Assembly (NCBI RefSeq): GCF_027942865.1
Contig: NC_134524.1
Location: forward strand, 1,360,144 to 1,424,143
DNA from: Odontesthes bonariensis
Taxonomy: Eukaryota > Chordata > Actinopteri > Atheriniformes > Atherinopsidae
Length of the DNA stretch: 64,000 nt
Direction: 5' to 3'
How positions within the stretch are numbered: position 1 is the first letter of the stretch; every line of letters starts with the position of its first letter. Under the pieces are notes generated by a model that saw only the letters and a program-made list of their open reading frames with translations, was not told the origin of the DNA and searched no databases. Shown here one piece after another: positions 2,487 to 62,640 of this stretch. The position numbers and the translations under genes were made by a program.

Positions 2487-3719
2487 GAACACACACCTGA
2501 ACACACACCTGAACACACACCTGAACACACACCTGAGAATACACCTGAAAACACACCTGAGAAAACACCTGAACACACACCTGAAAACACACACCTGAAA
2601 ACACACCTGAACACACACCTGAACACACACCTGAACACACACCTGAACACACACCTGAACACACACCTGAACACACACCTGAAAACACACCTGAGAAAAC
2701 ACCTGAACACACATCTGAACACACACCTGAAAACACACCTGAGAAAACACCTGAACACACACCTGAAAACACACCTGAGAACACACCTGAGAACACACCT
2801 GAGAACACACCTGAGAACACACCTGAGAACACACCTGAGAACACACCTGAACACACACCTGAGAACACACCTGAGAACACACCTGAGAACACACCTGAGA
2901 ACACACCTGAGAACACACCTGAACACACACCTGAGAACACACCTGAACACACACCTGAACACACACCTGAGAAAACACCTGAGAACACACCTGAGAACAC
3001 ACCTGAACACACACCTGAACACACACCTAAACATACACCTGAGAACACACCTGAACACACACCTGAGAACACACCTGAACAAACACCTGACAACACACCT
3101 GAGAATACACCTGAAAACACACCTGAGAATACACCTAAACACACACCTGAGAACACACCTGAGAACACACCTGAACACACACCTGAGAACACACCTGAGA
3201 ACACACCTGAGAAAACACCTGAGAACACACCTGAGAACACACCTGAGAACACACCTGAGAACACACCTGAACACACACCTGAACACACACCTGAGAAAAC
3301 ACCTGAGAACACACCTGAGAACACACCTGAACACACACCTGAGAACACACCTGAGAACACACCTGAACACACACCTGAGAAAACACCTGAGAACACACCT
3401 GAGAACACACCTGAGAACACACCTGAACACACACCTGAACACACCTGAACACACACCTAAACATACACCTGAAAACACACCTGAGAACACACCTGAACAC
3501 ACACCTGAACACACCTGAACACACACCTAAACATACACCTGAACACACACCTGAACACACACCTAAACATACACCTGAAAACACACCTGAGAACACACCT
3601 GAGAACACACCTGAGAACACACCTGAACACACACCTGAACACACCTTAACACACACCTGAACACACACCTGAGAACACACCTGAACACACACCTGAGAAC
3701 ACACCTGAACATGCACCTG
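2487..3719. repeat. 12-bp minisatellite in lectin A 3' UTR
   Basis: About 100 copies of a 10-12 bp unit (ACACACCTGAGA and ACACACCTGAAC variants) start directly after the lectin A stop codon and end about 75 bp before the polyadenylation signal. If that signal is used, the array is transcribed as most of the 3' UTR. Long open frames on the minus strand (VCSGVFSGV- and RCVFRCVF-like) only reflect a stop-free unit and are not genes. Confidence 0.93.
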
Positions 3720-23300: not shown

Positions 23301-26300
23301 GCCACTGGAGGAAGCGTTTCACCTGCCGCAGCTTACGGTAGCTCATCTGTGAGTGGTGGCCCAGCCCTGCCGGTCAGCCAATGAGGGGAGAGGACGGAGG
23401 TCAGGTGGGACAGAGCAGACACAGATCAGAGCTGACGCCAGGCTGGGTGCAGCGCGTTACCTGTGCAGCGTGTTACCTGTGCAGCGCGTTACCTGTGCAG
23501 CGCGTTACCTGTGCAGCGTGTTACCTGTGCAGTACACCTGTGTGTGGGCTGTGTTGGTCAGGTAGCTCCAGCCACGCGTCCCGTCTCTGATCAGCTTCAG
23601 TCGGGTACACACCAGCACGGACACTGCGGACAGAGAAGCCATCATCAGCCGTCTGTGGTTCCACGCTCAGGTGCGAGCCTATCAACGCGGCCGCCTCACG
23701 TGGGTGGAGCTTCAGGTGTGCTTCGGGTTGAGATGTGGAAAAGAGCTTCACCAGGATCGGCTCGTCGCTGCTTCCATCCTCCAATCGAAGCCAGCGGTAC
23801 TCAAGAAGCTCCGCCCCTCTGCCATCTGCCAGCACCCAAAAACCCCAAAACGAGCAGATTTCTGGTGTCAGCGTGATGTTTCACCATCCCAGTGGCACGC
23901 TGTCACCATGGCAACACATACCTTTACCCCGGATTCGCTCCGATCGTCCAGCGAACGTCAGCAGGCCGATGACATCACACACGGAGCCGTGGGGGCGGTC
24001 CAGAAGCTCCTTCCTGACGGAGACAGAATGTGATTTACTGCGGGGACGATGACTGATGGACCAACAGAGCCTTCAGGGCGGGGGGGCTGGTACCTGCTGT
24101 AGAAGGTGTAGGTGGGAGCAGGTGGACGATACTCAGGTGAAACGGAGGATTCTGGGAGCACAGAGAGGCGTGCAGCAGGATTCCTGCTGTTCACACTGAT
24201 CTCTGCACACAGAGCACAGAGAGTAAACACAAGACAAGACAATTTTATTTATAGAGCACAATTCATACACAGGGCAATTCAAAGTGCTTCACAGCTACAT
24301 AAAATCACAAGAAGGCAATAAAATCATTATAAATAAAAATAAAAATAATATAATAAAAAAAAAATAAAATAATCATTAATTAATTAAAAAGTGAAGAGTG
24401 CAGATAAAATACTTTCAGGTGTCATATGCACAGCTAAATAGAACTGTTTTCAGCCTGGATTTAAACATTGTCAGAGTTGAGGCCTGTCTCACATCTTCTG
24501 GAAGAATGTTCCAGATTTTAGGAGCATAAAACTGAAACGCATCCTCACATTGTTTAGTCCTGACTCTGGGCCCCAGCAGGAGACCCCTCCCTGAGGCAGG
24601 AGACCCCTCCCTGAGGCAGGAGACCCCTCCCTGAGGCAGGAGACCCCTCCCTGAGGCAGGAGACCCCTCCCTGAGGTTCTCAGAGCCCGAGTTGGTTCAT
24701 ATGGCTTTAAAATGTCCAATGGCATCGGAGAACAAGAAGGAATTACAGACAGGTTCCCTCCACGGGGCGTGTGCATGTGGGCGTGTGCACATGTGCATGT
24801 GTGTGCACGTGTGCATGTGCATGTACCCATGTCCTCGGCTTCAGCCTGGAAGTGCTTCTTGACTCGATAGTGGCTCAGGCTGACGATGTCACCAGGCTTC
24901 AGACAGCGATACCATCTGACACAAACGCTGTTCCACAGCACGATGCTCACGCTTCCTGTCCGGTCGCTCGCCTCCAGAAGCGCCTGGAGACACAAACACA
25001 GACGGGAAGTGATTTTAGGCTGCTGCTGCCATGTTGCTTTACGGCTGCTGGTGCCACGTGGCTTTACGGCTGCTGATGCCACGTGGCTTTACGGCTGCTG
25101 CCATGTTGCTTTACGGCTGCTGCTGCCATGTTGCTTTACGGCTGCTGCTGCCATGTTGCTTTACGGCTGCTGCTGCCATGTTGCTTTACGGCTGCTGCTG
25201 CCATGTGGCTTTACGGCTGCTGATGCCACGTGGCTTTACGGCTGCTGATGCCATGTTGCTTTACGGCTGCTGCCATGTTGCTTTACGGCTGCTGCTGCCA
25301 TGTTGCTTTACGGCTGCTGCTGCCATGTTGCTTTATGGCTGCTGCCATGTGGCTTTACGGCTGCTGATGCCATGTTGCTTTATGGCTGCTGCCATGTAGC
25401 TTTACGGCTGCTGCTGCCATTTTGCTTTACGGCTGCTGCTGCCATGTTGCTTTACGGCTGCTGCTGCCACGTGGCTTTATGGCTGCTGATGCCACGTGGC
25501 TTTACGGCTGCTGATGCCACGTTGCTTTACGGCTGCTGCTGCCATGTTGCTTTATGGCTGCTGCCATGTGGCTTTACGGCTGCTGATGCCATGTTGCTTT
25601 ATGGCTGCTGCCATGTAGCTTTACGGCTGCTGCTGCCATGTTGCTTTACGGCTGCTGCTGCCATGTTGCTTTACGGCTGCTGCTGCCACGTGGCTTTATG
25701 GCTGCTGATGCCACGTGGCTTTACGGCTGCTGATGCCACGTTGCTTTACGGCTGCTGCTGCCACGTTGCTTTACGGCTGCTGCTGCCATGTTGCTTTACG
25801 GCTGCTGCTGCCATGTTGCTTTACGGCTGCTGCTGCCATGTTGCTTTACGGCTGCTGCTGCCACGTGGCTTTACGGCTGCTGCTGCCACGTGGCTTTACG
25901 GCTGCTGATACCACATTGCTTTACGGCTGCTGCTGCCATGTTGCTTTACGGCTGCTGCTGCCATGTTGCTTTACGGCTGCTGCCATGTGGCTTTACGGCT
26001 GCTGATGCCATGTTGCTTTATGGCTGCTGCCATGTAGCTTTACGGCTGCTGCTGCCATGTTGCTTTACGGCTGCTGCTGCCACGTTGCTTTACGGCTGCT
26101 GCTGCCACGTGGCTTTATGGCTGCTGATGCCACGTGGCTTTACGGCTGCTGATGCCACGTTGCTTTACGGCTGCTGCTGCCACGTTGCTTTACGGCTGCT
26201 GCTGCCACGTTGCTTTACGGCTGCTCCTGCCACGTGGTTTTACGGCTGCTGCTGCCACGTTGCTTTACGGCTGCTGTCACGTGGCTTTATGGCTGCTGCT

Positions 26301-29300
26301 GCCATGTTGCTTTACGGCTGCTGCTGCCATGTTGCTTTACGGCTGCTGCTGCCATGTTGCTTTACGGCTGCTGCTGCCACGTGGCTTTACGGCTGCTGCT
26401 GCCACGTGGCTTTGCGGCTGCTGCCACGTTGCTTTACGGCTGCTGTCACGTGGCTTTTCGGCTGCTGCCACGTTGCTTTACGGCTGCTGCCATGTGGCTT
26501 TACGGCTGCTGCCACGTTGCTGTACGGCTGCTGTCACGTGGCTTTTCGGCTGCTGCCACGTTGCTTTACGGCTGCTGTCACGTGGCTTTACGGCTGCTGC
26601 CACGTGGCTTTACGGCTGCTGTCACGTGGCTTTTCGGCTGCTGCCACGTGGCTTTACGGCTGCTGCCACGTGGCTTTACGGCTGCTGCCATGTGGCTTTT
26701 TGGCTGCTGTCATGTGGCTTTACGGCTGCTGCCACGTTGCTTTACGGCTGCTGCCACGTTGCTTTACGGCTGCTGCCATGTGGCTTTTTGGCTGCTGTCA
26801 TGTGGCTTTACGGCTGCTGCCACGTGGCTTTACGGCTGCTGTCACGTGGCTTTACGGCTGCTGCCACGTTGCTTTACGGCTGCTGCCATGTGGCTTTTTG
26901 GCTGCTGTCATGTGGCTTTACGGCTGCTGCCACGTGGCTTTACGGCTGCTGTCACGTGGCTTTACGGCTGCTGCCACGTGGCTTTACGGCTGCTGCCATG
27001 TTGCTTTACGTAGGATTTTACCTAAAGTTAGACGTGGAAACAGCCTTTCTTCATTTAAAATTCATACCTTCACGGAGGTATCTGCAGCGCTCTCAGCCTC
27101 CAGACGGACACACATGCAGTCCTCTGAAAAGCTAACGACGCACAGACTCCAGAGAGGCTGCGACACGCTGACTGAATGCTGATTGGTTGAAAGATAGCTG
27201 AGGGGGGGCCGACAACTGACTTCACAACAAAGAGGACGAAACATCACGAATCTCAGAGTAATGACCACCACTTCATCACAGAGCAAACACAACCAAGAGC
27301 AGCAGCTCAGACACTTTCAGATCAGCAAAGCATTCTGGGGATAAACAGGCCCGTATATGGTCACACTGGCCCCGCCCACTGACCTTATATGGGCACTCAC
27401 AGTTCCTGTCTGTCCTCCCATAATACATCAGGTGAGACTTGTTGACGATGCGTAGAATCAGCTGGTGGTGGACGGCGCCCCTCAAAACGCCTCGCCGCCC
27501 AGACAGGAAGGAGTCCCGCAGCTCGGACACGGTCACAGCAGGACGCCGACCTGCCAACACACGTGGTCATGTGACACGTTAGCGTCTCAGATGCAGGTAT
27601 CAGGATGTAGAAGCCCTGAGGAACCTGAGGAGATGATCATCAGAACATCTGTCCAACCCTGACAGTCTACCTTCCTCCTCCTCTCCTGCCTCTTCCTGCT
27701 CCGCCTCCTCATCATCAGTGGGCGGGGCTAAGCTCCACGCCTCGCCGCTGTAGTCCACATTGTTCCACAGAGGAAGGAACACGCTCCGGTGGGCCCTCAG
27801 AGGAGCCGACGGACCTGCTGGATCATCATAAATCAGCCAGTTTCCACGCCGTAACGTTACACCTGCGGCTGTGATGTCACCGACGCCGTCTCACCTGCTG
27901 GTTCTGAGGATCCAAACCAGGGCAGAGCGTCCCAGCTCACATCCGTCCCGCTGACTCCAGGGTCCGCAGCTTCGTCTCTCACCTCCAAGCTCGCCAGTCT
28001 GTAGCTGCAGGGGGAGGAGCCACGTTCAGTCCTCTTTCTTACATCACAACACTGTCCTCTCTCACCTGTCCTCTCTCACCTGTCCTCTCACACCTGTCCT
28101 CTCACACCTGTCCTCTCACACCTGTTCTCTCTCACTTGTCATCTCTCACCTGTCCTCTCTCACCTGTCCTCTCTCACCTGTCCTCTCTCACTTGTCATCT
28201 CTCACCTGTCCTCTCTCACCTGTCCTCTCTCACTTGTCCTCTCTCACTTGTCCTCTCTCACCTGTCCTCTCTCACCTGTCCTCTCACACCTGTCCTCTCT
28301 CACCTGTCCTCTCTCACCTGTCCTCTCTCACTTGTCATCTCTCACCTGTCCTCTCACACCTGTCCTCTCACACCTGTCCTCTCACCTGTCCTCTCTCACC
28401 TGTCCTCTCACACCTGTCCTCTCTTACCTGTCCTCTCTCACCTGTCCTCTCTCACCTGTCCTCTCTCACCTGTCCTCTCTCACCTGTCTCTGGCTCCGCA
28501 GGCCCCGGTGCATTCTGGGAGCTGAGCGCTCAGGGCGGGGCTGAAGGTGGCGTTCCAAACCGCCACCCCCGGCTGCAGGATGCGTCTCTCCACCAGCCGG
28601 TTCAGACCAGGATCCAGAGTCACCTGAAGCCTGCAGTCCGCGTCCGTCAGTGTGATGTCATACAGGTCGTCACCTGGAGACTCGAGGCGGGAGAAACCAA
28701 CACAGCCAGTCAGAGCATCAGATTTATGTCCATCTGTGTACAGTTTGCTTTTTCTGGTCTTATTCTTTTTTTAAAATTTATTTTATTTTATTGATCCAAA
28801 TTTTATTTCATTTTATTATTATTTATTTTATTCTTTTTTTAATTTTCCCCATTGGGGGATGAATAAAGTATTTTTCTATTCTATTCTGTCCTGTCCTTTT
28901 GGACCCGTCCAGTTCGCCTGTCCAACACTGTCCTGCCGTGTCTCACCGTTGAGGACGGCCTGTGGAAAGTAAACGGAGGACCCCTGATCCCTGCTGTAAC
29001 GCCGGACCTCCACCACGAACAGGAACTCCCTGCAGACCACGGGAGAGGACGCCTGAAGGACAAACACCCGAGAAAAGAGACCGGATCAGTCTCAGGTCGG
29101 CCCGAGTTACCGGGATGATGAGGAAAAAGCTTCACCACACACATATCAACATTTAGGCTGTGTTCCAAACCGCCTACTACTCCTACTACTCCTACTAACT
29201 TTAACTTTTTTTAAGTTCCCGGATGCATACCAGATTCTCCGAAATGTTGGGTATGCATCATGAGGTTACTACTCATACTCAAACTACCCAAGATGCAATG

Positions 29301-32993: not shown

Positions 32994-35900
32994 CTACACC
33001 CGGCGGGTGAAGTGCTGCGAGTCTCTGAACTCCAGGTAGAGGCTGAACAGCAGGTGCAGGGCCTGGATCCGGCTGCCGTACACGGGGATGTCCAGCAGGG
33101 CGCAGACGATGTCCACGTACTGCGACAGGCCGCAGCCCAGGCGAGCCGGCGGCAGCTGCAGGCGGCCCAGCTGCTCCTCCAGCTCGGCCGGCCACTCCTG
33201 CATCAGGCTGTCGATGTCGGGCATGGGCCGGCCGTACTGCACGCTGGCCGGCGGCTTGGAGCGGTGCAGGGCGCCGATGCTCTCCACCCAGCTGTCCACC
33301 GCCCGCGGGTTGGCCTGAGGGCTGGCCACGCTGGTCACCTTCTTCAGCTGCGGGGGACAGAGGCTGGGTCAGGTGCTGGGTCAGGTGCTGGGTCAGGTGC
33401 TGGGTCAGGTTTTGGGTCAGATTCTGGGTCAGGTGCTGGGTCAGGTGCTGGGTCAGGTGCTGGGTCAGGTGCTGGGTCAGATTCTGGGTCAGATTCTGGG
33501 TCAGATTCTGGGTCAGACTCTGGGTCAGGTGCTGGGTCAGGTGCTGGGTCAGGTGCTGGGTCAGGTGCTGGGTCAGGTTCTGGGTCAGGTTTTGGGTCAG
33601 ATTCTGGGTCAGGTGCTGGGTCAGGTGCTGGGTCAGATTCTGGGTCAGATTCTGGGTCAGGTTCTGGGTCAGATGCTGGGTCAGATGCTGGGTCAGGTGC
33701 TGGGTCAGGTTTTGGGTCAGGTGCTGGGTCAGGTGCTGGGTCAGGTGCTGGGTCAGATTCTGGGTCAGGTGCTGGGTCAGGTGCTGGGTCAGGTGCTGGG
33801 TCAGGTGCTGGGCCAGATTCTGGGTCAGGTGCTGGGCCAGGTTCTGGGTCAGGTCCTGGGTCAGGTGCTGGGTCAGATTCTGGGTCAGATTCTGGGTCAG
33901 GTGCTGGGTCAGGTGCTGGGTCAGGTGCTGGGTCAGATTCTGGGTCAGATTCTGGGTCAGGTGCTGGGTCAGGTGCTGGGTCAGGTGCTGGGTCAGGTGC
34001 TGGGTCAGATTCTGGGTCAGGTGCTGGGCCAGGTGCTGGGTCAGGTGCTGGGTCAGACTCTGGGTCAGACTCTGGGTCAGACTCTGGGTCAGGTGCTGGG
34101 TCAGATTCTGGGTCAGATTCTGGGTCAGGTGCTGGGTCAGGTGCTGGGTCAGGTGCTGGGTCAGGTTCTGGGTCAGGTCCTGGGTTAGGTGCTGGGTCAG
34201 GTGCTGGGTCAGATTCTGGGTCAGGTGCTGGGTCAGGTGCTGGGTCAGGTGCTGGGTCAGATTCTGGGTCAGATTCTGGGTCAGGTCCTGGGTCAGGTGC
34301 TGGGTCAGATTCTGGGTCAGATTCTGGGTCAGGTGCTGGGTCAGGTGCTGGGTCAGGTGCTGGGTCAGGTGCTGGGTCAGGTGCTGGGTCAGGTGCTGGG
34401 TCAGGTGCTGGGTCAGATTCTGGGTCAGGTGCTGGGTCAGATTCTGGGTCAGGTGCTGGGTCAGGTGCTGGGTCAGGTGCTGGGTCAGGTGCTGGGTCAG
34501 ATTCTGGGTCAGGTGCTGGGTCAGGTGCTGGGTCAGGTGCTGGGTCAGATTCTGGGTCAGATTCTGGGTCAGGTGCTGGGTCAGGTGCTGGGTCAGGTGC
34601 TGGGTCAGGTGCTGGGTCAGGTGCTGGGACAGACTCTGGGTCAGGTGCTGGGTCAGGTGCTGGGTCAGGTGCTGGGTCAGGTGCTGGGTCAGATTCTGGG
34701 TCAGGTGCTGGGTCAGGTGCTGGGTCAGGTGCTGGGTCAGATTCTGGGTCAGGTGCTGGGTCAGGTGCTGGGTCAGGTGCTGGGTCAGGTTTTGGGTCAG
34801 GTGCTGGGTCAGGTGCTGGGTCAGGTCCTGGGTCAGGTGCTGGGTCAGGTGCTGGGTCAGGTGCTGGGTCAGGTGCTGGGACAGGTGCTGGGTCAGGTGC
34901 TGGGTCAGGTGCTGGGTCAGGTGCTGGGTCAGGTGCTGGGTCAGATTCTGGGTCAGATTCTGGGTCAGGTGCTGGGTCAGGTGCTGGGTCAGGTGCTGGG
35001 TCAGGTGCTGGGTCAGATTCTGGGTCAGGTGCTGGGTCAGGTGCTGGGTCAGGTGCTGGGTCAGGTGCTGGGACAGACTCTGGGTCAGGTGCTGGGTCAG
35101 GTGCTGGGTCAGACTCTGGGTCAGGTGCTGGGTCAGGTGCTGGGTCAGGTGCTGGGTCAGGTGCTGGGTCAGATTCTGGGTCAGGTGCTGGGTCAGGTGC
35201 TGGGTCAGGTTTTGGGTCAGGTGCTGGGTCAGGTGCTGGGTCAGGTGCTGGGTCAGATTCTGGGTCAGATTCTGGGTCAGGTGCTGGGTCAGGTGCTGGG
35301 TCAGGTGCTGGGTCATGTGCTGGGTCAGGTGCTGGGTCAGATTCTGGGTCAGGTGCTGGGTCAGGTGCTGGGTCAGATTCTGGGTCAGGTGCTGGGTCAG
35401 GTGCTGGGTCAGGTGCTGGGTCAGGTGCTGGGTCAGATTCTGGGTCAGGTGCTGGGTCAGGTGCTGGGTCAGGTGCTGGGTCAGGTGCTGGGTCAGGTCT
35501 CTGGGTCAGGTCCTGGGTCAGGTGCTGGGTCAGGTGCTGGGTCAGGTGCTGGGTCAGGTGCTGGGTCAGGTGCTGGGTCAGGTGCTGGGTCAGATTCTGG
35601 GTCAGATTCTGGGTCAGGTGCTGGGTCAGGTGCTGGGTCAGGTGCTGGGTCAGGTTCTGGGTCAGGTGCTGGGTCAGGTGCTGGGTCAGGTGCTGGGACA
35701 GACTCTGGGTCAGGTGCTGGGTCAGGTGCTGGGTCAGATTCTGGGTCAGGTGCTGGGTCAGGTGCTGGGTCAGGTGCTGGGTCAGATTCTGGGTCAGATT
35801 CTGGGTCAGGTGCTGGGTCAGGTGCTGGGTCAGGTGCTGGGTCAGATTCTGGGTCAGGTGCTGGGTCAGGTGCTGGGTCAGGTGCTGGGTCAGGTGCTGG

Positions 35901-38900
35901 GTCAGGTGCTGGGTCAGATTCTGGGTCAGGTGCTGGGTCAGGTGCTGGGTCAGATTCTGGGTCAGGTGCTGGGTCAGGTGCTGGGTCAGGTGCTGGGTCA
36001 GATTCTGGGTCAGGTGCTGGGTCAGGTCTCTGGGTCAGGTCCTGGGTCAGGTGCTGGGTCAGGTGCTGGGTCAGGTGCTGGGTCAGGTTCTGGGTCAGGT
36101 GCTGGGTCAGGTTCTGGGTCAGGTGCTGGGTCAGGTGCTGGGTCAGGTGCTGGGTCAGGTTCTGGGTCAGGTGCTGGGTCAGATTCTGGGTCAGGTGCTG
36201 GGTCAGGTTCTGGGTCAGGTTCTGGGTCAGGTGCTGGGTCAGGTGCTGGGTCAGGTGCTGGGTCAGGTGCTGGGTCAGGTTCTGGGTCAGGTGCTGGGTC
36301 AGGTTCTGGGTCAGGTTCTGGGTCAGGTGCTGGTGTGGGTCAGACTCTGGGTCAGATTCTGGGTCAGGTGCTGGGTCAGATTCTGGGTCAGGTGCTGGGT
36401 CAGGTGCTGGGTCAGGTGCTGGGTCAGGTGCTGGGTCAGGTGCTGGGTCAGATTCTGGGTCAGGTGCTGGGTCAGGTGCTGGGTCAGATTCTGGGTCAGG
36501 TGCTGGGTCAGGTGCTGGGTCAGGTTTTGGGTCAGGTGCTGGGTCAGGTGCTGGGTCAGGTGCTGGGTCAGGTGCTGGGTCAGATTCTGGGTCAGGTGCT
36601 GGGTCAGGTGCTGGGTCAGGTGCTGGGTCAGGTGCTGGGTCAGATTCTGGGTCAGGTGCTGGGTCAGGTGCTGGGTCAGATTCTGGGTCAGGTGCTGGGT
36701 CAGGTGCTGGGTCAGGTGCTGGGTCAGGTGCTGGGTCAGATTCTGGGTCAGGTGCTGGGTCAGGTGCTGGGTCAGGTGCTGGGTCAGATTCTGGGTCAGG
36801 TGCTGGGTCAGGTGCTGGGTCAGGTGCTGGGTCAGGTTCTGGGTCAGGTGCTGGGTCAGGTGCTGGGTCAGGTGCTGGGTCAGGTGCTGGGACAGACTCT
36901 GGGTCAGGTGCTGGGTCAGGTGCTGGGTCAGATTCTGGGTCAGGTGCTGGGTCAGGTGCTGGGTCAGGTGCTGGGTCAGATTCTGGGTCAGATTCTGGGT
37001 CAGGTGCTGGGTCAGGTGCTGGGTCAGGTGCTGGGTCAGATTCTGGGTCAGGTGCTGGGTCAGGTGCTGGGTCAGGTGCTGGGTCAGGTGCTGGGACAGA
37101 CTCTGGGTCAGGTGCTGGGTCAGGTGCTGGGTCAGATTCTGGGTCAGGTGCTGGGTCAGGTGCTGGGTCAGGTGCTGGGTCAGATTCTGGGTCAGATTCT
37201 GGGTCAGGTGCTGGGTCAGGTGCTGGGTCAGGTGCTGGGTCAGATTCTGGGTCAGGTCCTGGGTCAGGTGCTGGGTCAGGTGCTGGGTCAGGTCCTGGGT
37301 CAGGTGCTGGGTCAGGTGCTGGGTCAGGTGCTGGGTCAGGTGCTGGGTCAGATTCTGGGTCAGGTGCTGGGTCAGGTGCTGGGTCAGATTCTGGGTCAGG
37401 TGCTGGGTCAGGTGCTGGGTCAGATTCTGGGTCAGGTGCTGGGTCAGATTCTGGGTCAGGTGCTGGGTCAGGTCTCTGGGTCAGGTCCTGGGTCAGGTGC
37501 TGGGTCAGGTGCTGGGTCAGGTGCTGGGTCAGGTGCTGGGTCAGGTTCTGGGTCAGGTGCTGGGTCAGGTGCTGGGTCAGGTGCTGGGTCAGGTGCTGGG
37601 TCAGATTCTGGGTCAGGTTCTGGGTCAGGTGCTGGGTCAGGTGCTGGGTCAGGTGCTGGGTCAGGTTCTGGGTCAGGTGCTGGGTCAGGTTCTGGGTCAG
37701 GTTCTGGGTCAGGTGCTGGTGTGGGTCAGACTCTGGGTCAGGTGCTGGGTCAGGTGCTGGGTCAGGTTCTGGGTCAGGTGCTGGGTCAGGTGCTGGGTCA
37801 GGTGCTGGGTCAGGTGCTGGGTCAGATTCTGGGTCAGGTGCTGGGTCAGGTGCTGGGTCAGATTCTGGGTCAGATTCTGGGTCAGATTCTGGGTCAGGTG
37901 CTGGGTCAGGTGCTGGGTCAGGTGCTGGGTCAGGTGCTGGGTCAGGTTCTGGGTCAGGTGCTGGGTCAGATTCTGGGTCAGGTGCTGGGTCAGGTCTCTG
38001 GGTCAGGTCCTGGGTCAGGTGCTGGGTCAGGTGCTGGGTCAGGTGCTGGGTCAGGTTCTGGGTCAGGTGCTGGGTCAGGTGCTGGGTCAGGTGCTGGGTC
38101 AGGTGCTGGGTCAGGTGCTGGGTCAGATTCTGGGTCAGGTGCTGGGTCAGATTCTGGGTCAGGTGCTGGGTCAGGTTCTGGGTCAGGTGCTGGGTCAGGT
38201 GCTGGGTCAGGTGCTGGGTCAGGTGCTGGGTCAGGTTCTGGGTCAGGTGCTGGGTCAGGTTCTGGGTCAGGTTCTGGGTCAGGTGCTGGTGTGGGTCAGA
38301 CTCTGGGTCAGATTCTGGGTCAGGTGCTGGGTCAGATTCTGGGTCAGGTGCTGGGTCAGGTGCTGGGTCAGGTGCTGGGTCAGGTGCTGGGTCAGATTCT
38401 GGGTCAGGTGCTGGGTCAGGTGCTGGGTCAGATTCTGGGTCAGGTGCTGGGTCAGGTGCTGGGTCAGGTTTTGGGTCAGGTGCTGGGTCAGGTGCTGGGT
38501 CAGGTGCTGGGTCAGGTGCTGGGTCAGGTGCTGGGTCAGATTCTGGGTCAGATTCTGGGTCAGGTGCTGGGTCAGGTGCTGGGTCAGGTGCTGGGTCAGG
38601 TGCTGGGTCAGGTGCTGGGTCAGATTCTGGGTCAGGTGCTGGGTCAGGTGCTGGGTCAGGTGCTGGGTCAGGTGCTGGGTCAGGTGCTGGGTCAGGTGCT
38701 GGGTCAGATTCTGGGTCAGGTGCTGGGTCAGGTGCTGGGTCAGGTGCTGGGTCAGATTCTGGGTCAGGTGCTGGGTCAGGTGCTGGGTCAGGTGCTGGGT
38801 CAGGTTCTGGGTCAGGTGCTGGGTCAGGTGCTGGGTCAGGTGCTGGGTCAGGTGCTGGGACAGACTCTGGGTCAGGTGCTGGGTCAGGTGCTGGGTCAGA

Positions 38901-41900
38901 TTCTGGGTCAGGTGCTGGGTCAGGTGCTGGGTCAGGTGCTGGGTCAGATTCTGGGTCAGATTCTGGGTCAGGTGCTGGGTCAGGTGCTGGGTCAGGTGCT
39001 GGGTCAGATTCTGGGTCAGGTGCTGGGTCAGGTGCTGGGTCAGGTGCTGGGTCAGGTGCTGGGACAGACTCTGGGTCAGGTGCTGGGTCAGGTGCTGGGT
39101 CAGATTCTGGGTCAGGTGCTGGGTCAGGTGCTGGGTCAGGTGCTGGGTCAGATTCTGGGTCAGATTCTGGGTCAGGTGCTGGGTCAGGTGCTGGGTCAGG
39201 TGCTGGGTCAGATTCTGGGTCAGGTCCTGGGTCAGGTGCTGGGTCAGGTGCTGGGTCAGGTGCTGGGTCAGGTGCTGGGTCAGGTGCTGGGTCAGATTCT
39301 GGGTCAGGTGCTGGGTCAGGTGCTGGGTCAGATTCTGGGTCAGGTGCTGGGTCAGGTGCTGGGTCAGATTCTGGGTCAGGTGCTGGGTCAGATTCTGGGT
39401 CAGGTGCTGGGTCAGATTCTGGGTCAGGTGCTGGGTCAGGTCTCTGGGTCAGGTCCTGGGTCAGGTGCTGGGTCAGGTGCTGGGTCAGGTGCTGGGTCAG
39501 GTGCTGGGTCAGGTTCTGGGTCAGGTGCTGGGTCAGGTGCTGGGTCAGGTGCTGGGTCAGGTGCTGGGTCAGGTGCTGGGTCAGATTCTGGGTCAGGTTC
39601 TGGGTCAGGTGCTGGGTCAGGTGCTGGGTCAGGTGCTGGGTCAGGTTCTGGGTCAGGTGCTGGGTCAGGTTCTGGGTCAGGTTCTGGGTCAGGTGCTGGT
39701 GTGGGTCAGACTCTGGGTCAGGTGCTGGGTCAGGTGCTGGGTCAGGTTCTGGGTCAGGTGCTGGGTCAGGTGCTGGGTCAGGTGCTGGGTCAGGTGCTGG
39801 GTCAGATTCTGGGTCAGGTGCTGGGTCAGGTGCTGGGTCAGATTCTGGGTCAGATTCTGGGTCAGATTCTGGGTCAGATTCTGGGTCAGGTGCTGGGTCA
39901 GGTGCTGGGTCAGGTGCTGGGTCAGGTGCTGGGTCAGATTCTGGGTCAGGTGCTGGGTCAGGTGCTGGGTCAGGTGCTGGGTCAGATTCTGGGTCAGGTG
40001 CTGGGTCAGGTGCTGGGTCAGGTGCTGGGTCAGACTCTGGGTCAGACTCTGGGTCAGGTGCTGGGTCAGGTGCTGGGTCAGTTGCTGGGTCAGGTGCTGG
40101 GTCAGGTGCTGGGTCAGGTGCTGGGTCAGGTTTTGGGTCAGATTCTGGGTCAGATTCTGGGTCAGGTGCTGGGTCAGGTGCTGGGTCAGACTCTGGGTCA
40201 GACTCTGGGTCAGGTGCTGGGTCAGGTGCTGGGTCAGGTGCTGGGTCAGGTGCTGGGTCAGGTGCTGGGTCAGGTCCTGGGTCAGGTGCTGGGTCAGGTG
40301 CTGGGTCAGGTGCTGGGTCAGGTTTTGGGTCAGATTCTGGGTCAGATTCTGGGTCAGGTGCTGGGTCAGGTCCTGGTCAGGTGCTGGGTCAGGTGCTGGG
40401 TCAGGTGCTGGGTCAGGTTTTGGGTCAGGTGCTGGGTCAGGTGCTGGGTCAGGTGCTGGGTCAGGTGCTGGGTCAGGTGCTGGGTCAGAGGCGGGTTCTG
40501 GTGCTGTATATGTGAGTCAGGTGCTGGTGTGGGTCAGGTTCTGGGTTCTGGTGCTGGTGTGGGTACCTCTGTGGCGCCGTGCTGCTTGGTCTCCTCAGAC
40601 AGCCACAGTGACAGCACCGTGGGGTCCGACTGCTTCACGCTGGGCTCATCCAGAACCAGCAGGCCCAGATTGTCCGTTTTCCCGTCTGCTCTCGGCACCT
40701 GAAACCCAAACACACACGTCAGTAAGACTTTAAAACGAGTCTGAACCAGGAAAAAAGCCCAGTTGGGTCGGCTCAGTCGGTCCCTTAATGACTGCGGTGG
40801 CTCTGGTTCTTTCGCTTTTCGTAAAAACTCAGTGTTATTGTTAATGGATACAGATACTCCTGATATAAAAGCCAACAAACCGTTTGCACTATTGTATCAT
40901 ATAAGAACAAATCTGTAGGATCGAGATTCAACCTGACCGGCCTCAACTCTGACAATGTTTAAATCCAGGCTGAAAACAGTTCTATTTAGACACCTGAAAG
41001 TATTTTATCTGCACTCTTCACTTTTAAATTAATTAATTAATTAATTAATTTTTTTTAAATTTGTATTATTATTATTTTTTTTAATTTATTTTTAATGATT
41101 TTATGGCCTTCTTGTGATTTTATGTGCTGTGAAGCACTTTGAATATCCTTGTGTACAAATTGTGCTCTATAAATGAAATTGCCTTGCCTTAATCATTACG
41201 GTACTGAACAAAGATGCAAACATAATTAAATGGCTCCATGTTGGAAAACAAAGTGGTTCTAAGATGAGTCTGAAGTTGGACCCGCTCTGAGCAGGAAGCA
41301 GAACCTGGGGCTGCCCATATAAGGAGCTCAGAGCAGCATCTAAGGAGGTCTGCTTGGGACCGCTCTGAGCAGGAAGCAGAACCTGGGGCCGCCCATATAA
41401 GGAGCTCAGAGCAGCATCTAAGGAGGTCTGCTTGGGACCGCTCTGAGCAGGAAGCAGAACCTGGGGCTGCCCATATAAGGAGCTCAGAGCATCTAAGGAG
41501 GTCTGCTTGGGACCGCTCTGAGCAGGAAGCAGAACCTGGGGCTGCCCATATAAGGAGCTCAGAGCATCTAAGGAGGTCTGCTTGGGACCGCTCTGAGCAG
41601 GAAGCAGAACCCCGGGCTGCCCATATAAGGAGCTCAGAGCAGCATCTAAGGAGGTCTGCTTGGGACCGCTCTGAGCAGGAAGCAGAACCTGGGGCTACCC
41701 ATATAAGGAGCTCAGAGCATCTAAGGAGGTCTGCTTGGGACCGCTCTGAGCAGGAAGCAGAACCTGGGGCTGCTCATATAAGGAGCTCAGAGCATCTAAG
41801 GAGGTCTGCTTGGGACCGCTCTGAGCAGGAAGCAGAACCTGGGGCTGCCCATATAAGGAGCTCAGAGCATCTAAGGAGGTCTGCTTGGGACCGCTCTGAG

Positions 41901-44900
41901 CAGGAAGCAGAACCTGGGGCTGCCCATATAAGGAGCTCAGAGCATCTAAGGAGGTCTGCTTGGGACCGCTCTAACCCTAACCCTCAGCTGGGAGGACTTC
42001 ACTTCTCTCACCTTCAGGAAGGCGTCGATGTCTCCCACAGCCGGGATGAAGTCGGGGATGAACGGCTTCAGGTGGTGCTCCAGCTCGATGGTCTGAGGGG
42101 TGTAGCTGCAAGGAGAGGGTGGAGAAAACAGGTGGAGAGGATGGAGAGAACAGAGAGGAGTCAGAGGTGTGGGACACAGCTGGGTGTTAACAGCTTTGTT
42201 TACGGGTCACCTTCAGGATCAGGTGAGACTTAGAGAGACTGTGTTACAGCTCAGACTGAACAAACACTGAACCTTTGCTTTGCTGTTGTAGAGAGAATGT
42301 GTTGGGTTTGGGGTCTCTGTTGGGTTTGGGGTCTCTGAGGAAGGGAATGTGTTGGGTTTGGGGTCTCTGTTGGGTTTGGGGTCTCTGAGGAAGAGAATGC
42401 GTTGGGTTTGGGTCTCTGAGGAAGAGAATGTGTTGGGTTTGGGGTCTCTGAGGAAGGGAATGTGTTGGGTTTGGGGTCTCTGAGGAAGGGAATGCGTTGG
42501 GTTTGGGGTCTCTGAGGAAGGGAATGTGTTGGGTTTGGGGTCTCTGAGGAAGGGAATGTGTTGGGTTTGGGTCTCTGAGGAAGAGAATGTGTTGGGTTTG
42601 GGGTCTCTGAGGAAGGGAATGTGTTGGGTTTGGGGTCTCTGAGGAAGGGAATGCGTTGGGTTTGGGGTCTCTGAGGAAGCGAATGTGTTGGGTTTGGGGT
42701 CTCTGAGGAAGCGAATGTGTTGGGTTTGGGGTCTCTGAGGAAGCGAATGTGTTGGGTTTGGGGTCTCTGAGGAAGTGAATGCGTTGGGTTTGGGGTCTCT
42801 GTTGGGTTTGGGGTCTCTGAGGAAGGGAATGTGTTGGGTTTGGGGTCTCTGAGGAAGGGAATGTGTTGGGTTTGGGGTCGCTGAGGAAGGGAATGCGTTG
42901 GGTTTGGGGTCGCTGAGGAAGGGAATGTGTTGGGTTTGGGGTCTCTGAGGAAGTGAATGTGTTGGGTTTGGGGTCTCTGAGGAAGGGAATGCGTTGGGTT
43001 TGGGGTCTCTGTTGGGTTTGGGGTCTCTGAGGAAGGGAATGTGTTGGGTTTGGGGTCTCTGTTGGGTTTGGGGTCTCTGAGGAAGGGAATGTGTTGGGTT
43101 TGGGGTCTCTGAGGAAGTGAATGTGTTGGGTTTGGGGTCTCTGAGGAAGGGAATGCGTTGGGTTTGGGGTCTCTGAGGAAGGGAATGTGTTGGGTTTGGG
43201 GTCTCTGAGGAAGAGAATGTGTTGGGTTTGGGGTCTCTGTTGGGTTTGAGGTCTCTGAGGAAGAGAATGTGTTGGGTTTGGGGTCTCTGAGGAAGAGAAT
43301 GTGTTGGGTTTGGGGTCTCTGTTGGGTTTGAGGTCTCTGAGGAAGAGAATGTGTTGGGTTTGGGGTCTCTGAGGAAGGGAATGTGTTGGGTTTGGGTCTC
43401 TGAGGAAGGGAATGTGTTGGGTTTGGGGTCTCTGAGGAAGGGAATGCGTTGGGTTTGGGGTCTCTGAGGAAGCGAATGTGTTGGGTTTGGGGTCTCTGAG
43501 GAAGCGAATGTGTTGGGTTTGGGGTCTCTGAGGAAGGGAATGTGTTGGGTTTGGGTCTCTGAGGAAGGGAATGTGTTGGGTTTGGGGTCTCTGAGGAAGG
43601 GAATGCGTTGGGTTTGGGGTCTCTGAGGAAGCGAATGTGTTGGGTTTGGGGTCTCTGAGGAAGCGAATGTGTTGGGTTTGGGGTCTCTGAGGAAGCGAAT
43701 GTGTTGGGTTTGGGGTCTCTGAGGAAGTGAATGCGTTGGGTTTGGGGTCTCTGTTGGGTTTGGGGTCTCTGAGGAAGGGAATGTGTTGGGTTTGGGGTCT
43801 CTGAGGAAGAGAATGTGTTGGGTTTGGGGTCGCTGAGGAAGGGAATGCGTTGGGTTTGGGGTCGCTGAGGAAGGGAATGTGTTGGGTTTGGGGTCTCTGA
43901 GGAAGTGAATGTGTTGGGTTTGGGGTCTCTGAGGAAGGGAATGCGTTGGGTTTGGGGTCTCTGTTGGGTTTGGGGTCTCTGAGGAAGGGAATGTGTTGGG
44001 TTTGGGGTCTCTGTTGGGTTTGGGGTCTCTGAGGAAGGGAATGTGTTGGGTTTGGGGTCTCTGAGGAAGTGAATGTGTTGGGTTTGGGGTCTCTGAGGAA
44101 GGGAATGCGTTGGGTTTGGGGTCTCTGAGGAAGGGAATGTGTTGGGTTTGGGGTCTCTGAGGAAGAGAATGTGTTGGGTTTGGGGTCTCTGTTGGGTTTG
44201 AGGTCTCTGAGGAAGAGAATGTGTTGGGTTTGGGGTCTCTGAGGAAGAGAATGTGTTGGGTTTGGGGTCTCTGAGGAAGGGAATGCGTTGGGTTTGGGGT
44301 CTCTGTTGGGTTTGAGGTCTCTGAGGAAGAGAATGTGTTGGGTTTGGGTCTCTGTTGGGTTTGAGGTCTCTGAGGAAGAGAATGTGTTGGGTTTGGGGTC
44401 TCTGTTGGGTTTGAGGTCTCTGAGGAAGAGAATGTGTTGGGTTTGGGGTCTCTGTTGGGTTTGAGGTCTCTGAGGAAGAGAATGTGTTGGGTTTGGGGTC
44501 TCTGTTGGGTTTGAGGTCTCTGAGGAAGAGAATGTGTTGGGTTTGGGGTCTCTGAGGAAGAGAATGTGTTGGGTTTGAGGTCTCTGAGGAAGGGAATGTG
44601 TTGGGTTTGGGGTCTCTGAGGAAGGGAATGTGTTGGGTTTGGGGTCTCTGAGGAAGGGAATGTGTTGGGTTTGGGGTCTCTGTTGGGTTTGGGGTCTCTG
44701 AGGAAGAGAATGTGTTGGGTTTGGGGTCTCTGAGGAAGAGAATGTGTTGGGTTTGGGGTCTCTGAGGAAGAGAATGTGTTGGGTTTGGGGTCTCTGAGGA
44801 AGGGAATGTGTTGGGTTTGGGGTCTCTGTTGGGTTTGGGGTCTCTGAGGAAGAGAATGTGTTGGGTTTGGGGTCTCTGAGGAAGAGAATGTGTTGGGTTT

Positions 44901-47900
44901 GGGGTCTCTGAGGAAGGGAATGTGTTGGGTTTGGGGTCTCTGAGGAAGGGAATGTGTTGGGTTTGGGGTCTCTGAGGAAGCGAATGTGTTGGGTTTGGGG
45001 TCTCTGAGGAAGAGAATGTGTTGGGTTTGGGGTCTCTGAGGAAGAGAATGCGTTGGGTTTGGGGTCTCTGAGGAAGAGAATGTGTTGGGTTTGGGGTCTC
45101 TGTTGGGTTTGGGGTCTCTGAGGAAGCGAATGTGTTGGGTTTGGGGTCTCTGAGGAAGGGAATGTGTTGGGTTTGGGGTCTCTGTTGGGTTTGGGGTCTC
45201 TGAGGAAGAGAATGTGTTGGGTTTCGGGTCTCTGAGGAAGAGAATGTGCTGGGTTTGGGGTCTCTGAGGAAGCGAATGTGTTGGGTTTCGGGTCTCTGAG
45301 GAAGGGAATGTGTTGGGTTTGGGGTCTCTGAGGAAGAGAATGTGTTGGGTTTGGGGTCTCTGAGGAAGAGAATGTGTTGGGTTTGGGGTCTCTGAGGAAG
45401 AGAATGTGTTGGGTTTTGGGTCTCTGAGGAAGAGAATGCGTTGGGTTTGGGGTCTCTGAGGAAGGGAATGTGTTGGGTTTGGGGTCTCTGAGGAAGGGAA
45501 TGTGTTGGGTTTGGGGTCTCTGAGGAAGAGAATGCGTTGGGTTTGGGGTCTCTGTTGGGTTTGGGGTCTCTGAGGAAGGGAATGTGTTGGGTTTGGGGTC
45601 TCTGAGGAAGAGAATGCGTTGGGTTTGGGGTCTCTGAGGAAGAGAATGTGTTGGGTTTGGGGTCTCTGAGGAAGAGAATGTGTTGGGTTTGGGGTCTCTG
45701 AGGAAGAGAATGTGTTGGGTTTGGGGTCTCTGAGGAAGAGAATGTGTTGGGTTTGGGGTCTCTGAGGAGGAGAATGTGTTGGGTTTGGGGTCTCTGAGGA
45801 AGAGAATGTGTTGGGTTTGGGGTCTCTGAGGAAGAGAATGTGTTGGGTTAGGGGTCTCTGTTGGGTTTGGGGTCTCTGAGGAAGAGAATGTGTTGGGTTA
45901 GGGGTCTCTGAGGAAGAGAATGCGTTGGGTTTGGGGTCTCTGTTGGGTTTGGGGTCTCTGTTGGGTTTGGGGTCTCTGAGGAAGAGAATGTGTTGGGTTA
46001 GGGGTCTCTGTTGGGTTTGGGGTCTCTGAGGAAGAGAATGTGTTGGGTTTGGGGTCTCTGTTGGGTTTGGGGTCTCTGTTGGGTTTGGGGTCTCTGAGGA
46101 AGAGAATGTGTTGGGTTTGGGGTCTCTGTTGGGTTTGGGGTCTCTGAGGAAGAGAATGCGTTGGGTTTGGGGTCTCTGAGGAAGAGAATGTGTTGGGTTT
46201 GGGGTCTCTGTTGGGTTTGGGGTCTCTGAGGAAGAGAATGTGTTGGGTTTGGGGTCTCTGAGGAAGGGAATGTGTTGGGTTTGGGGTCTCTGAGGAAGAG
46301 AATGTGTTGGGTTTGGGGTCTCTGAGGAAGAGAATGTGTTGGGTTTGGGGTCTCTGAGGAAGGGAATGTGTTGGGTTTGGGGTCTCTGAGGAAGAGAATG
46401 TGTTGGGTTTGGGGTCTCTGTTGGGTTTGGGGTCTCTGAGGAAGAGAATGTGTTGGGTTTGGGTCTCTGTTGGGTTTGGGGTCTCTGAGGAAGAGAATGT
46501 GTTGGGTTTGGGGTCTCTGTTGGGTTTGGGGTCTCTGAGGAAGAGAATGCGTTGGGTTTGGGGTCTCTGTTGGGTTTGGGGTCTCTGAGGAAGAGAATGT
46601 GTTGGGTTAGGGGTCTCTGTTGGGTTTGGGGTCTCTGAGGAAGAGAATGTGTTGGGTTTGGGGTCTCTGTTGGGTTTGGGGTCTCTGAGGAAGAGAATGT
46701 GTTGGGTTAGGGGTCTCTGAGGAAGAGAATGCGTTGGGTTTGGGGTCTCTGTTGGGTTTGGGGTCTCTGAGGAGGAGAATATGTTGGGTTTGGGGTCTCT
46801 GTTGGGTGCATTTAATACCCACCGGGTGATGTACTGGAACAGCTCTCTGACCTCAGTGCTGACCGGCAGGTTGGCGTAGTCTGCGGGGTCGTACGCTCCC
46901 TCCGGAGCCTCGGTGGGCTCGTCGTCGTCGTCGTCGTCGTCTGTATCGTCCTCATCAGAGTCTTCCTCCTCCTCTTCCTCTTCCTCCTCCTCATTGGGAC
47001 TGCCCCCCGGCTGCGCCCCCGCCGGTTCTTTAGGCCTCTGAGGCTTCGGGTCCTCGTCCAGTTCGTCGCTGCTGCTGTCGGCCGACATGAGGCTGCGAAC
47101 TCTCCTATTCCTGCTCGACTCTGGCTGACAGGACGAAAAGATGGAGAGAGGGACCCGTCAAACATCTGAAACATGGCAAGCAGAGCTCCATCATGGGTCC
47201 AGTTACCCGTCAAACATCTGAAACATGGCGGGCAGAGCTCCATCATGGGTCCAGTGACCCATCAAACATCTGAAACATGGCAAGCAGAGCTCCATCATGG
47301 GTCCAGTGACCCGTCAAACATCTGAAACACGGCGAGCAGAGCTCCATGGTGGGTCCAGTGACCCTTCAAACATCTGAAACATGGCGAGCAGAGCTCCATC
47401 ATGGGTCCAGTGACCCGTCAAACATCTGAAACATGGCAAGCAGAGCTCCATCGTGGGTCCAGTGACCCGTCAAACATCTGAAACATGGCGAGCAGAGCTC
47501 CATCATGGGTCCAGTGACCCATCAAACATCTGAAACATGGCGAGCAGAGCTCCATCATGGGTCCAGTGACCCGTCAAACATCTGAAACATGGCGGGCAGA
47601 GCTCAATCGTGGGTCCAGTGACCCGTCAAACATCTGAAACATGGCGAGCAGAGCTCCATCATGGGTCCAGTGACCCATCAAACATCTGAAACATGGCGAG
47701 CAGAGCTCCATCATGGTACCAGTGACCCTTCAAACATCTGAAACATGGCGTGCAGAGCTCCATCATGGGTCCAGTGACCCTTCAAACATCTGAAACGTGG
47801 CGCGCAGAGCTCCATCGTGGGTCCAGTGACCCGTCAAACATCTGAAACATGGCGAGCAGAGCTCCATCGTGGGTCCAGTGACCCTTCAAACATCTGAAAC

Positions 47901-48354
47901 ACGGCGCGCAGAGCTCCATCGTGGGTCCAGTGACCCGTCAAACATCTGAAACATGGCGAGCAGAGCTCCATCGTGGGTCCAGTGACCCTTTAAACATCTT
48001 AAACATGGCGGGCAGAGCTACATCGTGGGTCCAGTGACCCTTCAAACATCTGAAACATGGCGAGCAGAGCTCCATCATGGGTCCAGTGACCCGTCAAACA
48101 TCTGAAACATGGCGAGCAGAGCTACATCGTGGGTCCAGTGACCCGTCAAACATCTGAAACATGGCGAGCAGAGCTCCATCGTGGGTCCAGCGTCTTTAAG
48201 TGACTTTAAGTCTTTAAGAAGTTACCTGATGAAGGCCGCGGGGAGTCGGGCTGTAGACGCTGGCCACCTCCTCACCGTCCACCACCTCCAGGCTCTCGTC
48301 GTACGGCTGGTTCTTCAGCAGTCGGGGCCCTTTCACCCGGTCAGCCCGCTCCAT
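32994..48354 (-). CDS. ift46: IFT46, intraflagellar transport complex B subunit
   Basis: Five minus-strand exons: 48354-48226, 47124-46823, 42105-42012, 40698-40567, 33347-32994 (stop TAG). They join in frame to 1011 nt, 336 residues; human IFT46 is about 304, the difference being N-terminal. IFT46 is an IFT-B core protein needed to build cilia. Diagnostic segments are EGAYDPADYANLPVSTEV (about 112-129), HLKPFIPDFIPAVGDIDAFL, NLGLLVLDEPSVKQSDPTVL, HRSKPPASVQYGRPMPDIDS and DIPVYGSRIQALHLLFSLYL. Exon 2 has a long Glu/Asp run (about 87-108). I start at the ATG at 48354 because exon 1 (NQPYDESLEV) is open and in frame with exon 2; a shorter product from the ATG at 47088 is possible. The protein ends shortly after DSQHF, lacking the longer tail of mammals. 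Every intron is filled by a different minisatellite. Confidence 0.93.
33360..40489. repeat. 7.1-kb array of a 12-bp unit filling ift46 intron 4
   Basis: About 590 copies of GGTGCTGGGTCA with variants GATTCTGGGTCA, GGTTCTGGGTCA, GGTCCTGGGTCA, GACTCTGGGTCA and GGTTTTGGGTCA. On the gene strand the unit is TGACCCAGCACC. It starts 13 bp from the last exon's acceptor and ends about 80 bp from the exon 4 donor. A rare 13-bp unit (GGTCTCTGGGTCA) lies near 35497, 36026, 37472, 37994 and 39438. A rare GGTGCTGGTGTGGGTCA lies near 36328, 37713, 38281 and 39695. Giant open frames (GAGS, CWVR, LGQV or LTQH peptides) are by-products of a stop-free 12-bp unit. Confidence 0.97.
40925..41200 (+). mobile_element. 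L2-like LINE 3' end (ift46 intron 3)
   Basis: CTCAACTCTGACAATGTTTA, then AATCCAGGCTGAAAACAGTT and the tail with TGTGCTCTATAAATGAAATT and GCCTTGCCTT. Same family as 24232-24760 and 61180-62640 but without their 20-bp array, since it is truncated just downstream of that position. Antisense to ift46. Confidence 0.7.
41281..41973. repeat. 75/78-bp minisatellite, ift46 intron 3
   Basis: Nine full units and one partial unit with GACCGCTCTGAGCAGGAAGC and CCATATAAGGAGCTCAGAGC. The length difference is one AGC codon-like insertion (AGCAGCATC versus AGCATC). Confidence 0.93.
41971..41984. other. Two-unit telomere-like motif CTAACCCTAACCCT
   Basis: Sits at the join between the last 75-bp unit and the 27-bp spacer before the ift46 exon 3 donor. 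Too short to be more than an interstitial trace or chance. Confidence 0.4.
42296..46808. repeat. 4.5-kb array of 32-bp and 18-bp units, ift46 intron 2
   Basis: The 32-bp unit holds GGGTTTGGGGTCTCTGAGGA and AGRGAATGTGTT. The 18-bp form (GGGTTTGGGGTCTCTGTT) lacks the GAGGAAG part. Variants GCGAATG, GTGAATG and ATGCGTT recur in order: the block near 42645-43240 reappears about 960 bp later near 43603-44180. The array starts 15 bp inside the intron from the exon 2 donor. Minus-strand frames rich in PNPTHSLPQRP are read-through of the array, partly continuous with exon 2, and are not coding. Confidence 0.96.
47150..48192. repeat. 52-bp minisatellite, ift46 intron 1
   Basis: About 20 copies of a 52-bp unit with CATCTGAAACATGGCGAGCA, GAGCTCCATC and GGGTCCAGTGACCC. 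It fills nearly all of the intron between 47125 and 48225, stopping about 33 bp from the exon 1 donor. Confidence 0.95.
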
Positions 48355-61179: not shown

Positions 61180-62640
61180 AGAAGTGGCAAGGCAAGGCAA
61201 TTTTATTTATAGAGCACAGTTCATACACAGGGCAATTCAAAGTGCTTTACAGCTACAAAAAATCACAAGAAGGCAATAAAACCATTAAAAAGGAATAAAA
61301 AATAAAATAAAGAAATTAAAAACCCATTAAAATAATCATTAATTAATTAATTAAAAAGTGTGGAGTGCAGATAAAATACTTTCAGGTGTCATATGCACAG
61401 CTAAACAGAACTGTTTCCAGCCTGGATTTAAACATTGTCAGAGTTGAGGCCTGTCTCACATCTTCTGGAAGACTGTTCCAGATTTTAGGGGCATAAAACT
61501 GAAACACAGCCTCACCTTGTTTAGTCCTGACTCTGGGCACCAGCAGGAGACCCCTCCCTGGGGCAGGAGACCCCTCCCTGAGGCAGCAGACCCCCTCCCT
61601 GGGGCAGGAGACCCCTCCCTGGGGCAGGAGACCCCTCCCTGAGGCAGCAGACCCCCTCCCTGGGGCAGGAGACCCCTCCCTGGGGCAGGAGACCCCTCCC
61701 TGAGGCAGGAGACCCCTCCCTGGGGCAGGAGACCCCTCCCTGGGGCAGGAGACCCCTCCCTGAGGCAGGAGACCCCTCCCTGAGGTTCTCAGAGCCCGAG
61801 TTGGTTCATATGGCTCTAACATGTCAGAGATGTACTTTGGCGCTTGACCGTGAAGAGACTTGTACACAAGCAGAGCTGTTTTAAAGTCTATTCTCTGAGC
61901 GACAGGAAGCCAGTGCAGAGACCTGAGCACTGGACTAATATGGTGGTATTTCCTGGTTCTAGTCAGGACTCGAGCAGCAGCGTTCTGGATGTACTGCAGC
62001 TGTCTTACAGCCCGTTTAGAGAGCCCAGTGAGCAGGCCGTTACAGTAGTCTAACCTGCTGGAGACAAACGCATGGATCAGTCTCTCTAAGTCTGCTTTAG
62101 ACACTATTCCTTTGATTCTGGCAATGTTTTTTAGATGGTAAAAAGCTGCTGATGTTACAAATTTAATGTGGCTGTTAAAGTTCAGGTCTGAGTCCAATAT
62201 TACCCCGAGATTTCTAACCTGATAGTTAGGTTTTAGAGAGAGAGTCTCAAGGTGACTGATAACACTTTCTCTTTGTTTCTGTGGGCCACAGACAATGATT
62301 TCAGTTTTGTCTGAGTTTAGCTGGAGGAAATTGTTTTGCATCCACACACTGATCTGTTCCATGCAGCGACACAGTGTATCTACAGGCCCGTGTTCTCCTG
62401 CCGTCAGTGACACGTAGATCTGAGTGTCATCTGCATAGTTGTGGTAGGACACATTATAGCTGCGTATTAGCTGGCCTAGTGGAAGCATGTACAGATTGAA
62501 CAATACGGGTCCCAGGATTGACCCCTGGGGAACCCCACAGGTCATAGCCATTTGGTCTGAGACACAGTTACCAATTTCAACAAAATATTTCCTGTCCTCC
62601 AGTTGTCTCCAGTTGTCCAATCTCCAATTGTTTATTTATT
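61180..62640 (-). mobile_element. L2-like LINE, RT C-terminal half open, with 20-bp array in the ORF
   Basis: On the minus strand a frame of 412 codons (62620-61382) runs through VPQGSILGPVLFNLYMLPLG, YADDTQIYVS (catalytic YADD), NSDKTEI, NLGVILDSDLNFNSHIK, RLDYCNGLLTG, NAAARVLTRTRKYHHISPVL and LHWLPV, to PKIWNSLPEDVR at the end. Within it, 61545-61790 is a 20-bp array read as [20 protein letters not shown]. The 3' UTR ends with GAGCACAGTTCATACACAGG and CAAGGCAAGGCAATTTTATT. The N-terminal part (endonuclease and first RT motifs) is missing. Cleanest LINE copy in the window. Confidence 0.82.
61545..61790. repeat. 20-bp array inside the L2-like RT ORF
   Basis: About 12 copies of GGGGCAGGAGACCCCTCCCT, with GAGGCAGCAGACCCCCTCCC variants of 21 bp. 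Despite the variants the LINE frame remains open through the array. Confidence 0.93.

Follow-up and report, generated by a model that had tools for sequence, protein, structure and literature searches.

The ift46 gene of Odontesthes bonariensis lies in a domain of approximately 2 Mb at a putative chromosome end, in which, with a probability of about 0.7, local tandem duplication is frequent and the four unrelated minisatellites of the gene represent a typical number. The window, by which we mean the whole 64,000-nucleotide stretch of DNA that was analysed, is situated 1.36-1.42 Mb from that end on contig C24 (35.38 Mb, in an assembly of 945 Mb). Within ift46, arrays account for 13,382 of 15,361 bp (87.1%) and for 93.3% of the intron sequence.

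We reconstructed the coding structure of ift46 from the DNA itself: its five coding exons, separated by introns with GT-AG borders, form one open frame of 1,011 bases that encodes 336 amino acids (Table 1). The protein matched the Pfam family IFT46_B_C across the whole 211-position profile (E=3.3e-94), and also solved IFT46 chains such as PDB 8bd7_D, annotated as intraflagellar transport protein 46 (E=1.4e-66). The gene is present in a single copy, with 5 of 5 genome matches at E<=0.001 falling inside the window. Third-position GC was 0.87 in ift46, versus 0.70 in RADX, 0.66-0.78 in lectin exons and 0.59 in a zinc-finger frame; the high value of ift46 is possibly a trace of biased gene conversion. 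According to an excerpt of PMC10285392, exons 7-9 of the zebrafish ift46 were targeted in that study. Set against these exon numbers, the five coding exons found here may reflect intron loss in this lineage. In the open-access literature, we found no paper on the intron/exon structure of ift46 in teleosts, and none on ift46 together with a minisatellite.

Table 1. Positions of ift46 and of the features within its introns, in window coordinates
Feature	Position	Strand	Evidence and distance to splice sites
ift46 coding region	48354-32994	minus	GT-AG borders, open frame, Pfam, PDB, genome search
ift46 exons	48226-48354, 46823-47124, 42012-42105, 40567-40698, 32994-33347	minus	GT-AG borders, open frame
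52-bp array, 20 copies, ift46 intron 1	47152..48190		TRF; 35 bp from donor, 27 bp from acceptor
32/18-bp array, ift46 intron 2	42300..46807		TRF; 15 bp from donor, 194 bp from acceptor
75/78-bp array, ~9 copies, ift46 intron 3	41282..41972		TRF, intron borders
12-bp array, ~593 copies, ift46 intron 4	33363..40506		TRF; 15 bp from acceptor, 60 bp from donor
Two successive ~160-unit blocks in intron 4 array	36190..40110 (approximate limits)		Unit alignment
Sole non-array stretch ahead of intron 4 acceptor	33348..33362 (15 bases)	minus	

An earlier note on this DNA had described each ift46 intron as a different minisatellite, with units of 52, 32/18, 75/78 and 12 bp and about 87% of the gene in arrays, and these figures hold. 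The array covers 1,039 of 1,101 bp in intron 1 (94%), 4,508 of 4,717 bp in intron 2 (96%), 691 of 1,313 bp in intron 3 (53%) and 7,144 of 7,219 bp in intron 4 (99%), leaving 62, 209, 622 and 75 bp, respectively. Intron 3 is just half array, and part of its remainder matched, at 83-85%, repeat copies found elsewhere in the window. Of the 155 spacings in the intron 2 array, 32 bp accounts for 114 and 18 bp for 34. The motif CTGAC was counted 579 times on the transcript strand of the intron 4 array. In the one assembly analysed by TRF, the units are arranged head-to-tail and fall within the range of ~6-100 bp of hypervariable minisatellites (VNTRs). When doubled consensus units were compared by BLAST, those of ift46 matched neither one another nor 12 other units of the window (16 units). 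Relatedness among the arrays was thus ruled out, and since the four units of ift46 are unrelated, four separate expansions took place, as the earlier note had held. The unrelated units also indicate that the seeds were probably local. An interstitial telomere repeat was rejected, with neither TTAGGGTTAGGG nor CCCTAACCCTAA found in the window.

Repeat contents along C24 were surveyed with twenty 10-kb samples. Tandem repeats made up a mean of 43.8% in nine samples at 0.1-2.0 Mb versus 0.4% in six samples at 2.5-18 Mb, in which the individual values were 0-2%. Five samples stand outside these means: the first 10 kb (7,500 N, 2% repeats) and those at 3.0 Mb (4,965 N, 2%), 1.30 Mb (2,643 N, 19%), 1.35 Mb (4,857 N, 32%) and just beyond the window (13%). 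When the last three are added, all twelve samples at 0.1-2.0 Mb give 38%. At the far end of the contig, a 2.5-kb sample at 0.98 Mb contained 58% repeats, and 1% was found at 2.4 Mb from the end. Among the samples at 0.1-2.5 Mb, that at 2.0 Mb still contained 16% repeats and that at 2.5 Mb none, a drop that points to a fairly abrupt inner boundary of the domain between these positions. GC contents were 0.42-0.52 at 0.1-2.0 Mb and 0.38-0.42 at 2.5-18 Mb, except for the N-rich sample at 3 Mb (0.46).

Arrays of at least 300 bp numbered 30 in the 112.5 kb of the twelve domain samples (2.7 per 10 kb) and 4 in the 15.4 kb of ift46 (2.6 per 10 kb), and there were none in the 60 kb of the six interior samples. 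The array share of ift46 (87%) exceeded the highest domain sample (69%) owing to the length of two of its arrays, although domain samples likewise included individual arrays of 6.5 and 3.9 kb. The earlier note had suggested that a local process rather than chance lay behind the arrays. On the scale of the chromosome end a local process is borne out (44% versus 0.4%), and an equally high density throughout the chromosome did not appear in the six interior samples; on the scale of the gene, with 2.6 versus 2.7 arrays per 10 kb, it is not. Likewise, the arrays are plainly no chance sequence, but their number in the gene is ordinary for its location and their packing, as described below, is within that of random scatter.

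Samples were also taken on six other contigs, C1, C2, C3, C4, C6 and C7; C5, C8 and C9, which are short contigs without such positions, were left out. In this order, repeats accounted for 0, 44, 87, 88, 16 and 0% at 1.0 Mb from the start, 55, 0, 2, 0, 100 and 0% at 1.0 Mb from the other end, and 3, 0, 0, 0, 0 and 0% at 12 Mb. Half of the 12 end samples contained 16-100% repeats and the other half at most 2%, C7 having none in the sample from either end, and 0 of 6 interior samples were above 3%. With C24 included, end and interior samples (13 versus 7) differed at P=0.03. Six C1 loci at 3-16 Mb, obtained from a separate search, contained 0-5%. On these six contigs, the trend of arrays toward the contig ends is uneven. 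The 6 of 12 end samples with at most 2% count against the chromosome-end interpretation, as does the share in ift46 above all domain samples; the intronic arrays in other genes of the window support it.

The intron 4 array contains a large block copy. Between its two successive blocks, 147 of 152 aligned units were identical, and with the preceding block 119 of 141. The pair would fit unequal exchange, or two haplotypes joined in the assembly, and the copy number of the array is consequently not a count of independent steps. We considered the possibility that a large part of the array length arose through faulty assembly, such as a tandem joining of haplotypes in intron 4. The near-identity of the blocks, with small indels, is compatible with a fault, as are 952-bp offset copies in the intron 2 array and the runs of N in nearby C24 samples, although N may instead stand for withheld sequence. 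However, intron 4 minus one block would still hold ~5 kb of array, and arrays were found throughout the domain and on other contigs. We regard a fault of this extent as unlikely.

When the window was examined by TRF with settings taken from a published fish survey (PMC2688266, in part), tandem repeats made up 43% of the sequence, 88% within ift46 and 29% outside. Excerpts of the same survey give 1.7-5.0% for medaka, stickleback, tetraodon and zebrafish and ~21% for Nothobranchius furzeri. Against these genomes, repeats are high even outside ift46, and the surroundings of the gene are thus extreme as well. The other genes in the window are RADX and two C-type lectin genes (A and B). An array of at least 80 bp was present in 4 of 4 introns of ift46, 4 of 10 in RADX, 2 of 7 in lectin B and 0 of 2 in lectin A, where lectin exon borders were set by eye, some being off by a base or two, and the RADX count leaves out its first and last exons. 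A fifth RADX intron holds 78 bp of array, below the cut-off. Arrays were commoner in introns than in other non-coding sequence of the window (12 of 21, P=0.005; without ift46, 8 of 17, P=0.05), one lectin array that is split by an insertion being entered twice in this test.

A process specific to ift46, through germline transcription, R-loops or replication stress, might also have driven the four expansions. Array-bearing introns are more frequent in ift46 than in the other three genes (4/4 versus 6/19, P=0.024), although this comparison was chosen post hoc. In addition, ift46 holds the two arrays that rank first and second in length in the window, its arrays were longer than the others (rank test, P=0.03; P=0.14 when restricted to arrays of at least 300 bp), its share lies above all domain samples, and its third-position GC is the highest among the window genes examined. 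On the other hand, array number in ift46 equals that of the domain, and clustering of this degree is expected by chance: when 21 arrays were scattered at random over non-repeat sequence, four were packed as tightly as in ift46 in 49% of runs, and in 17% with just the 15 arrays of at least 300 bp. Taken with the density, the scatter test led us to reject gene-specific clustering. Introns 2 and 4 are C-rich on the transcript strand, whereas loops of G-rich RNA would require the opposite sense. None of the four arrays contained a quadruplex match with loops of 1-7, and a quadruplex or R-loop cause was rejected. Loose matches with loops of 1-12 were confined to introns 2 (55 in the array) and 4 (145). 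A gene-specific process is thus quite unlikely.

Several arrays of the window are associated with mobile elements or other genes. In an intron of lectin B (7302-10664), a 20-bp array begins ~8 bases past the donor and is present in two halves (7302-8485 and 9926-10664). The halves flank a reverse-transcriptase frame matching Pfam RVT_1, an arrangement that a retrotransposon insertion into the array could have produced. Arrays at 61543-61782 and 11459-13435 lie in or continue frames that by eye resemble retrotransposon reverse transcriptase; Pfam confirmation of such frames applies to 8436-9533 only. Similar 20-bp arrays of 5 and 12 copies, at 24576-24676 and 61543-61782, respectively, occur in two copies of a retrotransposon-like sequence, and this element may carry its own minisatellite. 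One C-type lectin gene is followed, directly past its stop codon, by a 12-bp array (2487-3709). That the arrays of ift46 are kept for a function, as an intronic enhancer or in splicing control or the timing of expression, is highly improbable: intronic VNTRs can act on genes, and the gene and its splice borders are intact, but four unrelated units suggest no common role, similar arrays occur in unrelated neighbour genes and between genes, and some lie inside retrotransposon-like frames.

The arrays also bear on splice signals. Fifteen bases before an acceptor are too few for a usual branch point. With only this length of non-array sequence ahead of its acceptor, the branch point of intron 4 is to be sought among the CTGAC copies of the array, each of the 579 being followed by AG. 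All four matches to yTnAy in the last 70 bases of the intron are inside the array, which probably contains the branch point. In intron 1, a single yTnAy match is located within the terminal unit, and in introns 2 and 3 matches are found in unique sequence. Two RADX arrays start at a donor, which lies within the unit in both cases; they reach 5 and 8 bases into the exon. A 14-bp array (28052-28488) starts at the 5' splice site, 5 bases into the exon, and carries 31 donor-like GTRAG sites on the transcript strand; the other (23447-23532) consists of 5 copies of 16-bp units, each with CAGGTAAC. GTRAG was absent from the transcript strand of the arrays of ift46 introns 1-4, and a rule that transcript strands avoid donor sites was ruled out by the 31 sites in RADX. 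In 11 intronic arrays, the edges lay closer to splice sites than expected at random (Fisher P=0.007; P=0.26 for ift46 by itself), which is no more than a hint. We raise the tentative idea, to which we give less than even odds, that minisatellites fill introns at chromosome ends so fully that splicing uses signals borne by the repeats, such introns being driven by recombination, variable in length and pinned at their splice sites. If this holds, they would be a natural experiment on how the spliceosome selects one of hundreds of equivalent sites.

Taken as a whole, expansion in the chromosome-end domain would have occurred mainly by recombination-linked repair, that is unequal exchange or conversion, plus slippage. 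Introns would tolerate the arrays because splicing removes them, and splice signals would bound the arrays because changes there are presumably selected against. In intron 4, a repeat unit would supply the branch point.

The units share short words with arrays of another vertebrate. Excerpts of PMC10794172 describe frog subtelomeric tandem repeats that are enriched in TGGG, AGGG and ACAG and accompany high recombination. In 19 unit types of the window, the three words occurred 27 times, whereas shuffles gave 15.1 (P=0.0008) and unique segments 14.4 (P=0.002); among 136 words, AGGG ranked 4th, TGGG 7th and ACAG 41st. In the four ift46 units alone, the enrichment was not significant (8 versus 4.4, P=0.08; shuffles, P=0.18). 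Since the window units were known before the word test, units from other loci provide a fairer test. In 41 such units, the words occurred 66 times versus 35 expected, a count reached in 0 of 3,000 shuffles, and 29 of the units hold at least one of them; here single-base shuffles only were used, and neighbouring units were kept without de-duplication. Their recurrence in arrays at chromosome ends of both fish and frogs is a hint of a common vertebrate process.

The observation on ift46 is thus confirmed and is explained mostly by chromosomal location, the domain being of a type already described in other vertebrates. The near-complete conversion of small introns into arrays remains unusual. The question shifts from one ciliary gene to chromosome ends: in such a domain, the introns of a conserved gene can become arrays while the protein stays intact, and ift46 and RADX are sites at which array length, recombination and splicing could be measured jointly.

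Known systems can be compared to the extent of the excerpts cited. The sequence resembles that of Nothobranchius furzeri (PMC2688266) in its abundant GC-rich minisatellites; there, shared families are found at centromeres, whereas here many unrelated local units lie near contig ends. The growth hormone gene of Sparus aurata, with minisatellites in introns 1 and 3 (PMC3045353), is likewise a teleost gene affected in more than one intron, but in ift46 all four introns are affected, with arrays of up to 7.1 kb. In human subtelomeres (PMC7608644), as in the fish, GC-rich VNTRs are concentrated in the terminal megabases and also occupy introns of genes located there; the fish domain is far denser (~40% of sequence), with an inner edge on C24 at 2.0-2.5 Mb. 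The frog subtelomeric domains (PMC10794172) share the megabase scale of array-rich chromosome-end regions, an elevated GC content, enrichment in TGGG, AGGG and ACAG, and a minisatellite that arose from a mobile-element tail. The frog domains come with recombination data, whereas the domain described here belongs to a fish, is known from sequence alone, and can be followed down to the introns of single genes.
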